Shown: positions 6 through 56,051 of the stretch, piece after piece
Layout of the letters: the number at the start of each line of letters is the position of its first letter
How positions within the stretch are numbered: the stretch's first letter is position 1
Assembly (NCBI RefSeq): GCF_014696715.1
Contig: NZ_JACJQO010000019.1
Span: 372,001-436,000 of the forward strand
DNA from: Pseudanabaena sp. FACHB-2040
GTDB lineage: Bacteria > Cyanobacteriota > Cyanobacteriia > Phormidesmidales > Phormidesmidaceae
Direction of reading: 5' to 3'
DNA: 64,000 nucleotides
Notes under the pieces: generated by a model
Told to the model about the DNA's origin: nothing
The model's database searches: none
Seen by the model: only the letters and a program-made list of their open reading frames with translations
Translations under genes and position numbers: made by a program

Positions 6-1454
6 ATGGCCTACAGGTCAATTGGTTTGGCTGCTTTACTTGGGCTTATGGCCTCTATGGCCGGAGCTTCGGTGGCGCTGGCAAGCCCAGTGAAGGACGA
101 TTCTGTGAAGCTCCCTACCCCTGTTGACGACTCCCCCAATCAGCGCCAGCTGGCACCATTTGATTTAGAAGCGGCGGACATTTCCCCCGCGAACCACCCC
201 AATTCTGGGCTTCCTCAGTCGGGCCGCCTCTTAGCCGAGTTTCAGGGGGAGGTTCGCGCGCTCAGCACCGACCAACAGTATGTGTTGACAGACTCCTCTA
301 CTGCGGATGCTACCTATCTATACGATCGCTCAGGCAACCTGGTTGCTGAACTGGCAGGGTATCTCAGTGACTTTAGCCCAGATGAGCAATTTGTTGTTGC
401 CAGTTCATTTGAAACCAACACAACGGGTGTATACGACCTTTCTGGCCAACAGGTAGCTATACTGCCAGGCTACCTTACCGGATTTGGTGCAGACGGCCAA
501 AGCCTGACAACCTACTCAGAACCCGAGGATTTAGGGCGGCTTTACGACTTCTCTGGCAAGCTTTTGGCCGAATTTCAGGGGTCAACGATTGCCCTCAGCA
601 CCGATGGACAAGTTGTAGCTACCAACAGTAGTGACCAGATTAGCCACGTGTACAACACGGTTAGCGGCCAACTGATTCGTCTAGAAAAGGGATCGCTGCG
701 AGGGGATCGCCCTGTCTTTGTTTTAGAGGATCAGTATGTGGCAACCCACCCTTGGGGGCTAGAAGAGGAAATGGGTTATCTCTACAGCCGAGCAGGTAAT
801 GAGGTGGCACAGCTTCGAGGATCTCTAATTAGCGTTAGCCGAGATCAGCAGCACCTGATCACATTTAATAGCAACACTTACCTTTATGATCGTTCTGGTC
901 AGCAAACTGCTCAGCTAGAAGGCCAATTTAGAGCCCTTGGTCTGGATGACCAACACCTAATTACCCACAGTTACGGGGGCAACATCAGCCGCCTTTATGA
1001 CTTCTCTGGCAGATTAGTTGCCCAGTTCTCAGGGGAATTTGCAGGCTTCAGCCCAGACGGCCAAGGAATCTTGACGAACTTCTGTGCCGATGGAAACAGC
1101 TGCCTCTTTGACTTAAACGGCAGCGAAGTCGCTCAGTTTCAGGGATGGTTTAGCGACTTTAGCCCTGATGGGCAGCATCTACTCACAACCACTGAAAATA
1201 CCAGCTATCTCTACAGGCTTTCTGGTGAATGGGTGGGTCAGTATGAGGGCGGCAGAGGGACTTACAGTGCTGATGGTCAACACTTTGTTACCTCATCGTT
1301 TGGGGAGGATGTTTTGAATGTTTACGACCGCTTCGGCAACCCGGTTGACCAACTGCGAGGGCAGCTCTCCATTTTTGTCCCCAATCAGCCGCAGGTGATT
1401 ACCTATTCCGAACGTCAGGGGGCCAGCTATCTTTATGACCTTTCAGATGACTAG
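6..1454 (+). CDS. Exported beta-propeller-like repeat protein
   Basis: A 482-residue protein with an N-terminal signal peptide: a hydrophobic stretch over residues 7-26 ending ALA before SPV, a good signal peptidase I site. The rest is about eleven degenerate repeats of 35-43 residues. Each ends in a motif like LYDxSGxxVAxLxG followed by FSPDGQ or a relative, as at LLAEFQG, LVAELAG, EVAQLRG and EVAQFQG. The pattern resembles WD40-type or PD40-type propeller blades, though the classical W-D pair is absent. Location is therefore probably periplasmic or extracellular. No catalytic residues stand out, and a binding or scaffold role is inference only. The start lies five bases from the window edge; it is credible because the signal peptide follows directly. 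The next gene is convergent. Confidence 0.75.
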   Translation: MAYRSIGLAALLGLMASMAGASVALASPVKDDSVKLPTPVDDSPNQRQLAPFDLEAADISPANHPNSGLPQSGRLLAEFQGEVRALSTDQQYVLTDSSTADATYLYDRSGNLVAELAGYLSDFSPDEQFVVASSFETNTTGVYDLSGQQVAILPGYLTGFGADGQSLTTYSEPEDLGRLYDFSGKLLAEFQGSTIALSTDGQVVATNSSDQISHVYNTVSGQLIRLEKGSLRGDRPVFVLEDQYVATHPWGLEEEMGYLYSRAGNEVAQLRGSLISVSRDQQHLITFNSNTYLYDRSGQQTAQLEGQFRALGLDDQHLITHSYGGNISRLYDFSGRLVAQFSGEFAGFSPDGQGILTNFCADGNSCLFDLNGSEVAQFQGWFSDFSPDGQHLLTTTENTSYLYRLSGEWVGQYEGGRGTYSADGQHFVTSSFGEDVLNVYDRFGNPVDQLRGQLSIFVPNQPQVITYSERQGASYLYDLSDD

Positions 1455-51611: not shown

Positions 51612-52475
51612 TTAGCCAAAGTTGCGCTCTTGCAGCAGCCAAAACCCAGCAAATGAATCAGCTTCTGGGTTAGCCTGCACGCCAATGAAGTGCACTTGAT
51701 TGGCTGCCTGCTTTGCCACCTCAAAGTCCTTGGCTTCGCTCTGGGTGTCGGCAGTAGTTAGGTTTGCCAAAATCCAGCTCTCAGCCGGCCCTGTTTCTAA
51801 AATTACGCGTGGGGTTTTGCCTTGCTCTAGCCGCAGATAGCCCAGCTCCAAGCCAGACATCCAGCCAGCTAGGGGCATTGCCCGAGGAGAGAAAATTAGA
51901 ATGCCAGGAATTGGAGTATCGGGGCTAATGCCTGCTAACTCCAGGGGAAAGGCTTCGCCAAAATCAATTTCCCAGTCGGGCATTTCCTGCAGGGCAGCCG
52001 CCTCTAGAGTGACAAAAGCCCACTTCTGGCCCATTAGCGCATCTGGCAATGGCTGGGGGCTGGGTGGGGGAGCTGCTACGGTGGGCGCTGGAGCATTTGT
52101 GTAGCCAGGCTGATGCGGGTAAAAATTTTGCTTGCGATCGTCTAGCCACTGCTGCAGGGTCAGGGTGCGACGACTGGCCTTGGCAGACAGCCCCGCATCT
52201 TCACAGGCCCGGCTGATCATGTTTTGCATTTGATAGCGGAAGAAGCGAATGCGGCTGGGCCGGGCTGGAGCCTGAGCCAAGGCCTCCTCAATGGCTTCTT
52301 TGAGCTTGATCGAGTTGACCTCGCTGTTGGACAAAAACTTGCTGAAGCGAAAAGGTTCTCTCGCTTCAGCGTTTACCGTCTGCAGCCCTTCGCAAATGAG
52401 CACCTCCCAGACCTTCTTCTGGTTCTCATCTAAAATTGGGCGTGAATAAAAGTCCAGTTCCCAAACGCTACCCAT
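51612..52475 (-). CDS. Tab2/Atab2 family RNA-binding protein (DUF1092)
   Basis: A 287-residue soluble protein starting MGSVWELDFYSRPILDENQK, with PSRIRFFRYQMQNMISRACE near residue 75, RRTLTLQQWLDDRKQNFYPH, and ALMGQKWAFVTLEAAALQEM. This is the DUF1092/Tab2 family. In algae and plants, Tab2/Atab2 bind the 5' region of psaB and related mRNAs and are needed for photosystem assembly; the cyanobacterial protein's target is not established. A proline-rich insert near residues 150-165 separates the two halves. The permease gene follows 14 bases later on the same strand. Confidence 0.92.
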   Translation of the reverse strand: MGSVWELDFYSRPILDENQKKVWEVLICEGLQTVNAEAREPFRFSKFLSNSEVNSIKLKEAIEEALAQAPARPSRIRFFRYQMQNMISRACEDAGLSAKASRRTLTLQQWLDDRKQNFYPHQPGYTNAPAPTVAAPPPSPQPLPDALMGQKWAFVTLEAAALQEMPDWEIDFGEAFPLELAGISPDTPIPGILIFSPRAMPLAGWMSGLELGYLRLEQGKTPRVILETGPAESWILANLTTADTQSEAKDFEVAKQAANQVHFIGVQANPEADSFAGFWLLQERNFG

Positions 52476-53599: not shown

Positions 53600-54343
53600 C
53601 TATAGAGTTTCTTTGAATAATTGCATCACCTGCTGCCAGGCATCGCCAGCGGCTTGCGAATGGTAGCTATCGCGCTGGTCACAAAAAAATCCGTGCCCGA
53701 CTCCTTCGTAGAGAAAGACCTGATGGGGCACGCTGTGTTTCGCCAATTCAGCTTTAATCTGATCTACCTCCTTTAGCGGAATCAGCGGATCTTCGTTGCC
53801 AAAGAAGCCATAAACGGTGCCAGCAATCGCTTGAGTGCGGGTTAGGGTCGGTTCGCCACCACCCGGCGTTAGTGAAGTGATGCCCGCGCCATAGAAAACA
53901 GCAGTCGCCTTGATAGCTGGTAGCGTCGCTGCCAGGTAGGCCACATGGCCCCCAAAGCAAAAGCCGATGCAGCCAACCCCGTCCGGCTTGACAGTGGCTT
54001 TGCTGTGCAGCAGATCGACCGCAGCTTGAATGTCGCTCAGCAGCTCGTCGGCCTGAGTACCTACCTTATATTTGCGGCCTAGCTCCAAATCCGCCTGAGA
54101 ATAGCCGACTTCAAAGCCAGGGGCTTGACGGTAGTAAATATGGGGTGCGATCGCAACATAGCCAGCCTCGGCAAACCGATCTGTCACCGATCGAATATGC
54201 GCATTGACGCCAAACACCTCCTGAATCACCACCACTGCCGGAAAAGGCCCTTCTCCACCGGGTTCTGCCAGATAAGCTAGGATCGGAGTGTGGTTGCTAA
54301 TAATCTCGATAGTGGCCGTGCGAATCGGCAAGGATGTCGTCAT
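53600..54343 (-). CDS. Dienelactone hydrolase family protein
   Basis: A 247-residue alpha/beta hydrolase. The nucleophile is a cysteine in GVGCIGFCFGGHVAYLAATL near residue 128, as in dienelactone hydrolase, rather than serine. The acidic residue is in VYGFFGNEDPLIPLKEVDQI near 188 and the histidine in LYEGVGHGFFCDQRDSYHSQ near 220. The N-terminal VVVIQEVFGVNAHIRSVTDR strand is also typical. Substrate is unknown; members act on lactones and esters. It is divergent from the CcmK gene with about 110 bases between them. Confidence 0.92.
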   Translation of the reverse strand: MTTSLPIRTATIEIISNHTPILAYLAEPGGEGPFPAVVVIQEVFGVNAHIRSVTDRFAEAGYVAIAPHIYYRQAPGFEVGYSQADLELGRKYKVGTQADELLSDIQAAVDLLHSKATVKPDGVGCIGFCFGGHVAYLAATLPAIKATAVFYGAGITSLTPGGGEPTLTRTQAIAGTVYGFFGNEDPLIPLKEVDQIKAELAKHSVPHQVFLYEGVGHGFFCDQRDSYHSQAAGDAWQQVMQLFKETL

Positions 54344-54454
54344 AGGCTGCTCTCATTGCGCCATCCTTAACTTATCGTGAAGCTGCTGTTAGCAGAAGCC
54401 TGCTCAGCCTCGATTGCTCGAGCCCCATTGCTAAAATACGATTGCTAAAGTGCC

Positions 54455-54775
54455 ATGCCAGAAGCCGTTGGGGTGATTGAAACCCTGGGAATGCCCACTG
54501 CCCTAGAAGCAGCTGATACGCTCTGCAAGAGCGGCCAAGTGCAGTTTGTGCGATTTGATAATGTGCAGGCAGGGCTAATTAGCGTCATCATCCGAGGGCC
54601 TGTCTCGGAGGTCACGGCAGCCATTCAGGCCGCCCTTTCTACGCTGGGCCGAATGCCGAAGGGCAGAGTAGCTGGGCACCACATCATTCCCTGCCCTGAT
54701 GGCAACCTAGAGGCTGTCCTGCCGCTGCAGTCCCGCTCAGGGACCTCAGAATCGGCAGACTGGCTAATTGATTAG
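54455..54775 (+). CDS. Divergent CcmK-type carboxysome shell protein (BMC-H)
   Basis: A 106-residue BMC-domain protein that aligns without gaps over 90 residues to CcmK proteins, which form hexameric tiles of the carboxysome shell. VGVIETLGMPTALEAADTL and ISVIIRGPVSEVTAAIQAAL are diagnostic. Edge lysine K25 is kept, but the usual Arg80 (HIIARPHEN) is C80 in HHIIPCPDGN, and the pore-lining positions 36-40, KIGSG in CcmK2, are NVQAG here. No other ccm gene is present, so this is a satellite copy. Such copies are thought to tune permeability or cap; here altered packing or hetero-oligomer assembly is inferred. A GntR gene follows. Confidence 0.88.
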   Translation: MPEAVGVIETLGMPTALEAADTLCKSGQVQFVRFDNVQAGLISVIIRGPVSEVTAAIQAALSTLGRMPKGRVAGHHIIPCPDGNLEAVLPLQSRSGTSESADWLID

Positions 54776-55052
54776 GAGTAGCCCCACCTGCCGACATTGA
54801 ACGCTGATGTTGAATGAGTGAGGGCTACCCTATTAGTCAAGGGGGTTCAGCCCTGCCCCCTATCAAGAAATGCTTTGTTTACATAGAAGAGGCGATAGTC
54901 AAAAGAAGCGATAGTCAAGCTCAAAGTGTCAAAATTTGTTGCGCTCGTGCGGCTTTGACAAAGACTTTCTTCAGATTTTTGTGAATCTAGTTCGTAATGG
55001 CCGATAAAACAGGTGTAATACCTTGAGGGCCATTTGGTGTGCTCACGACTCC

Positions 55053-55064
55053 GGAGGTGCTGTG
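55053..55064 (+). promoter_or_regulatory. Ribosome-binding site deciding the GntR start
   Basis: GGAGG at 55053-55057 followed after four bases by GTG at 55062-55064. This spacing is slightly short but the in-frame TTG at 55023 has no comparable site. Confidence 0.55.
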
Positions 55065-56051
55065 GCTGTTCAATTTCATATTCAACCTGACAGCGAGATT
55101 CCAGCTTCGACGCAGCTTTATGACCAGATCTGGTTTGCGATCGCGTCGCGCCAATATCCCCCCGGCTACCGCCTACCCAGCACTCGCCAGCTGGCCATGC
55201 AGACGGGGCTGCACCGCAACACCATCAGCAAAGTTTATCGCCAGCTTGAAGACGCCGGCGTTGTCGAAGCCCTGCCCGGCTCCGGCATTTACGTACGAGA
55301 GCAGAACAGTCTGGAGAGCGCTCGGCCCCAGTCCCAGCTTTGGGATGAGTTTCCCAAAGCTCGTGAGGTCGTAGAAAATAGCCTGGACGAGCTGCTGCGC
55401 CAAGGCTGCTCTCTCAACCAAGCCCGCGAGCTGTTTCTCGGCGAGATCGACTGGCGGCTGCGCTGCAGCGCGCGCGTTTTAGTGACCACGCCCCGGCAAG
55501 ACATTGGAGCCGGACAGCTGATGGTACGGGAGCTAGAAGCTGCTCTCAAAATTCCAGTGCAGCTAGTGCCCCTAGAAGAACTCGAAGACGTGCTGGCCCA
55601 AACCCGATCCGGTACGGTAGTCACCAGCCGCTACTTTATTACTGAGGCAGAAGCGATCGCCGGTCCTAAATCGGTGCGGGTCATTCCTATCGACATCTAC
55701 GATTACAACAAAGAGCTGGGCCTGCTCAAAAACCTGTCCAAAGACACCTGTTTGGGCATGGTCAGCCTCAGTACCGGCATTTTGCGGGCGGCAGAGGTGA
55801 TCAGCTACAGCTTGCGGGGCGACGACATTCTAGTCATGACTGCCCAAAGCGACGATGCCTACAAGCTTGGCTCCCTAGTCCGGAGCGCTCAAACTATTGT
55901 CGTGTTCGACCAGAGCAGCCTGCCCGCCGTTAAGCAGGCCGTTAACGAGGCCCGCGAAGAGCTGATCCGACCGCCCCAGCTCATTGTCTGCGACAACTAT
56001 ATTGGTGAGAAGTCAATCAACCTGCTAAAGCGGGAGCTGGGCCTGGACTAA
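55062..56051 (+). CDS. GntR-family transcriptional regulator with sensor-like C-terminal domain
   Basis: A 329-residue regulator. The winged helix-turn-helix is at residues 10-80: SEIPASTQLYDQIWFAIASR, then RLPSTRQLAMQTGLHRNTIS and KVYRQLEDAGVVEALPGSGI, the GntR signature. The C-terminal 190 residues form an alpha/beta domain (VLVTTPRQDIGAGQLMVREL, GTVVTSRYFITEAEAIAGPK, DTCLGMVSLSTGILRAAEVI, GDDILVMTAQSDDAYKLGSL) that is neither an aminotransferase nor the FadR/HutC domain; it looks like a ligand-binding fold with two lobes. Start GTG 55062 is favoured by GGAGG upstream. Ligand and target genes unknown; the CcmK gene upstream on the same strand is a candidate. Confidence 0.82.
   Translation: MAVQFHIQPDSEIPASTQLYDQIWFAIASRQYPPGYRLPSTRQLAMQTGLHRNTISKVYRQLEDAGVVEALPGSGIYVREQNSLESARPQSQLWDEFPKAREVVENSLDELLRQGCSLNQARELFLGEIDWRLRCSARVLVTTPRQDIGAGQLMVRELEAALKIPVQLVPLEELEDVLAQTRSGTVVTSRYFITEAEAIAGPKSVRVIPIDIYDYNKELGLLKNLSKDTCLGMVSLSTGILRAAEVISYSLRGDDILVMTAQSDDAYKLGSLVRSAQTIVVFDQSSLPAVKQAVNEAREELIRPPQLIVCDNYIGEKSINLLKRELGLD

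Follow-up and report, generated by a model that had tools for sequence, protein, structure and literature searches.

In CcmK crystals, Arg28 and Asp49 make an ionic contact between hexamers, and in PduA the main edge contributors are Lys26 and Arg79, the lysine being fully conserved; the single mutants R28A, D49A and R80A of CcmK1 still form assemblies (PMC10109471). According to Sommer et al. (PMC5853843), Arg79 is kept in all CcmK classes but CcmK3, where its loss is linked to a minor role in tiling. The same paper describes what CcmK3 and CcmK4 do as enigmatic, reports CcmK5 only from genomes without CcmK3/4, and places CcmK5 and CcmK6 never near carboxysome genes. The C-terminus of CcmK1 is bound by CcmS at the outer shell surface (PMC11635287). 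The gene class described here bears on the reason for which several accessory CcmK proteins are maintained in cyanobacteria.

We report comparative analysis of a CcmK-like gene lying in a 64,000-nucleotide stretch of DNA (the window). The gene belongs to a distinct, vertically inherited CcmK-like BMC-H class, which occupies one site in part of one order and is under purifying selection. The class is marked by Cys80, by the loss of Arg28, Asp49 and the pore lysine, and by a private WL[D/I]D tail. The cysteine and the tail shared by its members give it the look of a selected and so far undescribed type of shell protein, and we met no other case in which a shell gene is fixed next to plmA.

The gene and its genomic setting

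Positions of the gene, its diagnostic residues and its neighbours are given in Table 1. The protein contains a single BMC domain (PF00936, residues 4-81), scoring 76.1 bits against the Pfam cut-off of 24.5, and its residues 1-93 align without gaps to CcmK2 of S. elongatus (4ox7) in HMMER, as the preliminary description of this DNA had stated. The replacement of Arg80 by cysteine and the altered pore lacking its lysine, both read there from the letters, were confirmed. The gene is solitary, as was also claimed: the CcmK3/CcmK4 pair of the same contig is about 209 kb away and no carboxysome gene adjoins. A single-chain AlphaFold2 model (mean pLDDT 85) has a confident BMC core and values below 50 at residues 93-100; its best solved match is CcmK2.

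Table 1. Location of the Cys80-class gene, its residues of interest and its flanking genes in the window
Feature	Position	Strand	Remark
dlh, dienelactone hydrolase-family gene	53600..54343	-	upstream flank of conserved site
BMC-H gene, Cys80 class, CcmK-like	54455..54775	+	ORF, 106 aa, ATG start, Pfam match
Cys24	54524..54526	+	not conserved in class; usual in CcmK6 (13/15)
Lys25, edge lysine (Lys26 of PduA)	54527..54529	+	kept 11/11
Residue 28, Gln (Arg28 in CcmK1/2 and CcmK4)	54536..54538	+	Arg in 0/11
Pore residues 36-40, NVQAG	54560..54574	+	pore lysine lost 11/11; pore sequence variable in class
Residue 49, Pro (Asp49 in CcmK1/2 and CcmK4)	54599..54601	+	Asp in 0/11
Cys80 replacing edge arginine	54692..54694	+	invariant 11/11
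C-terminal tail WLID, end of poorly conserved linker	54761..54772	+	WL[D/I]D in 11/11; low pLDDT
plmA (Sll1961) orthologue	55023..56051	+	downstream flank; start TTG 55023 or GTG 55062

The PF00936 search of the window genome (G000) gave seven BMC-domain matches in six genes: two CcmK and the two-domain CcmO in an operon on contig C12, the CcmK3/CcmK4 pair (C19:216585-217323), and the window gene (C19:426455). The beta-carboxysome operon is complete (CcmK, CcmK, CcmL, CcmM, CcmN, CcmO), with CcmO, CcmN, CcmM and CcmL above their NCBIfam cut-offs and two BMC-H genes adjoining. CcmP is reported in every beta-cyanobacterium; a CcmP-like gene was not found in this genome by the PF00936 search at E 0.001, a model that may simply miss CcmP. 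A scan of positions 54200-55200 for sigma-70 promoters and terminators gave no match.

Edge, pore and tail residues

The residue census comprised 34 CcmK1/2, 43 CcmK4, 45 CcmK3 and 15 CcmK6 proteins and 11 class members, the CcmK6 set being 15 of the 16 proteins found by profile (L216 was left out). Motif-labelled rows were drawn from 146 distinct proteins; 24 unlabelled rows are repeats under other names, outgroup or a frameshifted copy. Residue 80 is Arg in all CcmK1/2 (34/34) and in 42 of the 43 CcmK4 (one Asn), Asn in all 45 CcmK3, and Arg in 13 of the 15 CcmK6 (His in L203, Gln in L209). Every one of the 11 class members has Cys there; a strongly diverged copy, G177, has Gly. Exceptions to the published Arg79 rule are thus this class and two of the 15 CcmK6 proteins. 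The main text of the paper on the CcmK classes (PMC5853843) does not contain the word cysteine. A CcmK4-like protein, L192_3, carries Asn80 instead of Arg80.

Cys80 is encoded by TGC in six members and by TGT in five, and its retention in 11 of 11 alignable orthologues with either codon makes it more than chance; a one-off mutation or sequencing error is ruled out. Orthologues combining Arg80 with a normal pore, by which the changes could have been read as individual, were not encountered: the pore lysine is lost in each member that has Cys80, and G177 has Gly80. Cys24, which the preliminary description had singled out as a second cysteine, is indeed present in the window protein, but it is no feature of the class, being shared with G177 and no other member (2/12 with this diverged copy counted), and no second conserved cysteine exists in the class.

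The loss at the edge extends beyond residue 80. The combination Arg28, Asp49 and Arg80 occurs in 33/34 CcmK1/2 and 40/43 CcmK4, and none of the three residues is present in any of the 11 members, whereas Lys25 and Asp21 are kept in all rows, G177 included. The earlier suggestion that the protein resists tiling gains support from the absence of Arg28 and Asp49 together with Arg80; on the other hand, the reported assembly of the CcmK1 single mutants at these positions (PMC10109471) means that tiling does not necessarily fail when these residues are lost. In the pore, residue 36 is Lys in CcmK1/2, Arg in CcmK4 and Asn in CcmK6 (15/15), and the class has Asn in nine members and Thr in two.

All 11 proteins have Gly74, Cys80, Trp103, Leu104 and Asp106, five residues that are not the usual ones in other CcmK groups. 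The last three belong to the tail. After the PCP motif the sequence has drifted from the usual NLEAVLP in the six members of genus g2 plus G183, and the linker is variable both in length (18-24) and in sequence, whereas the last four residues hold to WL[D/I]D; this pattern suggests a short binding motif at the end of a flexible tether. G177 lacks the tail motif as well as Cys80. A weak search of five genomes for similar tails, its pattern admitting TGG as a 'stop', gave 40 places, 30 with loci and 17 with true stops, the latter comprising this gene (4), frames of no more than 26 aa (11) and a further two of 129 and 65 aa; a reversed control pattern was equally frequent.

Purifying selection shows in the measurable sequence pairs. 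The dN/dS ratio (Nei-Gojobori) was 0.23, 0.06, 0.06 and 0.15 in four pairs out of eight, those in which saturation at synonymous sites is incomplete; two of these values, with dS >2, are rough. All 11 reading frames are open, one of them cut by a contig end.

Distribution, locus and descent

Orthologues were sought in 63 genomes of the window's order, all of one family, and the locus upstream of the regulator plmA was read in the 57 of them where it was found, with one plmA match per genome. Cys80 orthologues occur in 11 of the 63 genomes and are spread over six genera, six members coming from the single genus g2. A BMC gene stands at plmA in 12 genomes: that of the window, G372, G387, G122, G013, G061, G326, G083, G345, G197, G183 and G177. 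Eleven of these orthologues align well; G177 is left out of most counts. Its BMC gene (L170, about 989-1315, minus strand) adjoins plmA, lacks the PCP motif and keeps Cys24, Lys25 and a pore reading NAEAG; in that genome only the regulator was found beside it. The order dlh, BMC gene, plmA is seen in 10 of the 11 members, and in G372 the contig starts inside the gene, with plmA following.

In 45 of the 57 genomes plmA has no BMC gene upstream, so the gene is dispensable. Between dlh and plmA, the empty sites of the 37 genomes with dlh measure 230 bases in the median (107-996), and the ten filled ones 638 (581-858). No remnant of the gene above noise was detected at empty dlh-plmA sites, where three matches had E 2.4-4.1. 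In G149 the stretch between the two genes (L149, bases 917-1913) is about 1 kb long and densely packed with near-repeats of one GC-rich unit; it contains no BMC remnant.

A profile of the eleven proteins was run against 388 genomes of the window's taxonomic class, sampled evenly from a larger set and including the order. Members, which match by construction, scored 129-178 bits and everything else 103 bits or less, CcmK6 proteins of other families coming next. With the window protein as a single query, members of the class, G372 apart, barely stand out from CcmK6 and CcmK1/2. A short-peptide scan of named genomes, which may leave out records close to the window genome, gave 46 loci; residue 80 was readable in 44 and was Cys in none.

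Trees were built from 85 columns, without the trait columns (24, 36-40, 80), the tail or any CcmK5 sequence. The class including G177 forms one side of a branch (90/98) adjoining CcmK6; without G177 its support is 99/98, and that of class plus CcmK6 is 98/91. As CcmK6 alone has no clade support (29/0), the class may be either nested within it or its neighbour. Two changes each are required for CcmK3 and for CcmK4 in the tree, because L192_3 (CcmK4-like, Asn80) had carried a CcmK3 label. In AU tests a clade with CcmK3 (p 0.023) or with CcmK4 (p 0.0005) was rejected; one with CcmK1/2 (p 0.167) or with CcmK3 and CcmK4 together (p 0.226) was not. A grouping with ordinary CcmK3 or CcmK4, raised in the preliminary description as a case against a separate protein, therefore fails for each alone, though not for the two jointly, and the family tree proposed there puts the class most probably next to CcmK6, within the limits of 85 columns and of long branches in the class, and with the two wider groupings unrejected.

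Ordinary CcmK3 is ruled out by Cys80 in place of Asn80, by the AU test and by the lack of an adjoining CcmK4, and ordinary CcmK4 by the AU test and the absence of its Arg36 and Arg80. The protein differs from CcmK1/2 in lacking the Lys36 pore and the Arg28-Asp49-Arg80 edge (Asp49 in 33/34 CcmK1/2) and in lying outside the main operon; with CcmK1 and CcmK2 it shares fold, gapless alignment, Lys25 and Asp21. CcmK5 does not fit a genome with a CcmK3/K4 pair. CcmK3 resembles the class in that its edge arginine is exchanged for one fixed residue, Asp49 is lost, no pore lysine is fixed and the gene is a satellite one, yet it keeps Arg28 (43/45) and is adjoined by CcmK4; moreover, a separate CcmK3 is present in the window genome.

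CcmK6, like the class, is encoded by a lone BMC-H gene at a distance from carboxysome genes (PMC5853843), with Asn36 in the pore and with the Cys24 that some class members have. Canonical CcmK6 is nevertheless ruled out by residue 80, pore and tail: its pore is NTDLG in 14/15 (one NTDFG) and its tail FPPPLS in 14/15, against a variable pore and WL[D/I]D in the class. A profile of eight CcmK6 proteins picked out 16 of the 388 genomes, with scores of 182-216 bits against 155.5 for CcmK1/2 as the next group; the window's order contributes none of these 16, and the two kinds of gene never occur together in one genome among the 388. In the CcmK6 loci that were read, no synteny with the class was seen within 1.5 kb. 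The rare long sub-branches CcmK6* and CcmK5*, compared by their published description (PMC5853843), are likewise rare and solitary with unusual pores; five K6* genomes are said to be without CcmK3/4 and CcmK5, and the window genome has CcmK3/K4. CcmK6* was not found in eight genomes of other families.

On the plmA tree, five changes are required to account for where the gene is present, three or more of which rest on well-supported branches, and within the g2-g10-g8-g6 part this tree and that of the gene branch in the same order. Counts alone do not separate gain from loss, and vertical descent with several losses would be the simplest account. The class could also be this order's CcmK6, weakly constrained after losing its old role and heading to loss. 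The affinity to CcmK6, the common Asn36, Cys24 in the window protein and G177, the absence of canonical CcmK6 from the order, the long branches, the gains or losses numbering at least five and the strongly diverged G177 all agree with this. We consider it unlikely, as purifying selection and 11 open frames out of 11 speak against decay, and drift is not expected to yield five residues that are new to the class and fixed across six genera.

Possible role in the shell

We give an even chance to a joint reading in which the class is an accessory protein of the carboxysome shell whose tiling edge is weakened and whose disordered tail docks a partner; shell membership, edge behaviour and tail function are inferred. 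The protein would be a low-abundance component of the beta-carboxysome shell, entering it as a hexamer or hexamer subunit, with the Lys25/Asp21 edge contact kept and the other edge interactions gone. By itself it would form no large sheets, and it would serve as a minority tile, as a mixed subunit or as a cap, with a pore predicted to be neutral or acidic rather than basic. The tail may dock a partner much as CcmK1 binds CcmS through its own; the CcmS-bound C-terminal extension (PMC11635287) is likewise a disordered tail on a CcmK core, of different sequence. Against this reading stand the dispensability of the gene, the assembly reported for the CcmK1 mutants, the absence of Cys80 and of the tail motif from G177, and the drifted stretch after PCP in genus g2 and G183.

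It is quite unlikely, in our judgement, that the edge is redox-responsive, with Cys80 bonding reversibly across facing hexamers or with thioredoxin, glutathione or another partner, and the bond locking or unlocking the edge at shell closure or at the change from light to dark. Cys80 is invariant among proteins only 40-60% identical to the window protein, the carboxysome interior is reported to be more oxidised than the cytosol and CcmK4 to be redox-sensitive (PMC12935002), and the neighbouring PlmA has thioredoxin-target cysteines. Strict conservation of residue 80, however, does not need a thiol role, as CcmK3 keeps Asn80 in 45 of 45 proteins without redox chemistry, and Cys80 has no conserved second cysteine as a companion.

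A BMC-H protein co-opted outside the shell, working as hexamer or monomer with PlmA or another regulator and taking no part in the carboxysome, is very improbable. None of the 12 loci read lies beside carboxysome genes and all 12 are beside plmA, three edge residues are lost and the tail is private; yet CcmK5 and CcmK6 too are reported never to lie near carboxysome genes (PMC5853843), Lys25 and Asp21 are kept, and plmA adjoins dlh with or without the BMC gene, so that the neighbourhood may be plain vertical inheritance.

The regulator itself is recognisable as PlmA. The downstream protein has the GntR N-terminal domain (PF00392, 53.3 bits) and no other GntR effector family, and it shares CLG.VSLS and C..YIGE with Sll1961 primer sequences. 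In Synechocystis Sll1961 a C229-C307 disulfide is reduced by thioredoxin M (PMC5923263); Cys137, 232 and 312 of the window protein lie 3, 3 and 5 residues after C134, C229 and C307 of Sll1961. PlmA is reported to occur in all cyanobacteria and to partner PII-PipX (PMC5083789). PlmA may control the BMC gene, but plmA adjoins dlh with or without this gene, and a literature search found no paper joining PlmA, carboxysome and CcmK. Little credence can be given to a redox-gated shell element at plmA, in which Cys80 would act as a reversible edge thiol, the tail would recruit an outer-face partner and expression would follow PlmA; were it true, shell behaviour would track redox and carbon/nitrogen state via the thioredoxin- and PII-PipX-linked PlmA.

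The class is a natural experiment, in which the Arg28-Asp49-Arg80 set was removed, a fixed cysteine put in and a tail added, all kept under selection, and it offers a small clonable protein for probing edge contacts, mixed hexamers and tails. Elsewhere in the window, a gene for a Tab2/Atab2-like RNA-binding protein is located at 51612-52475 on the minus strand.
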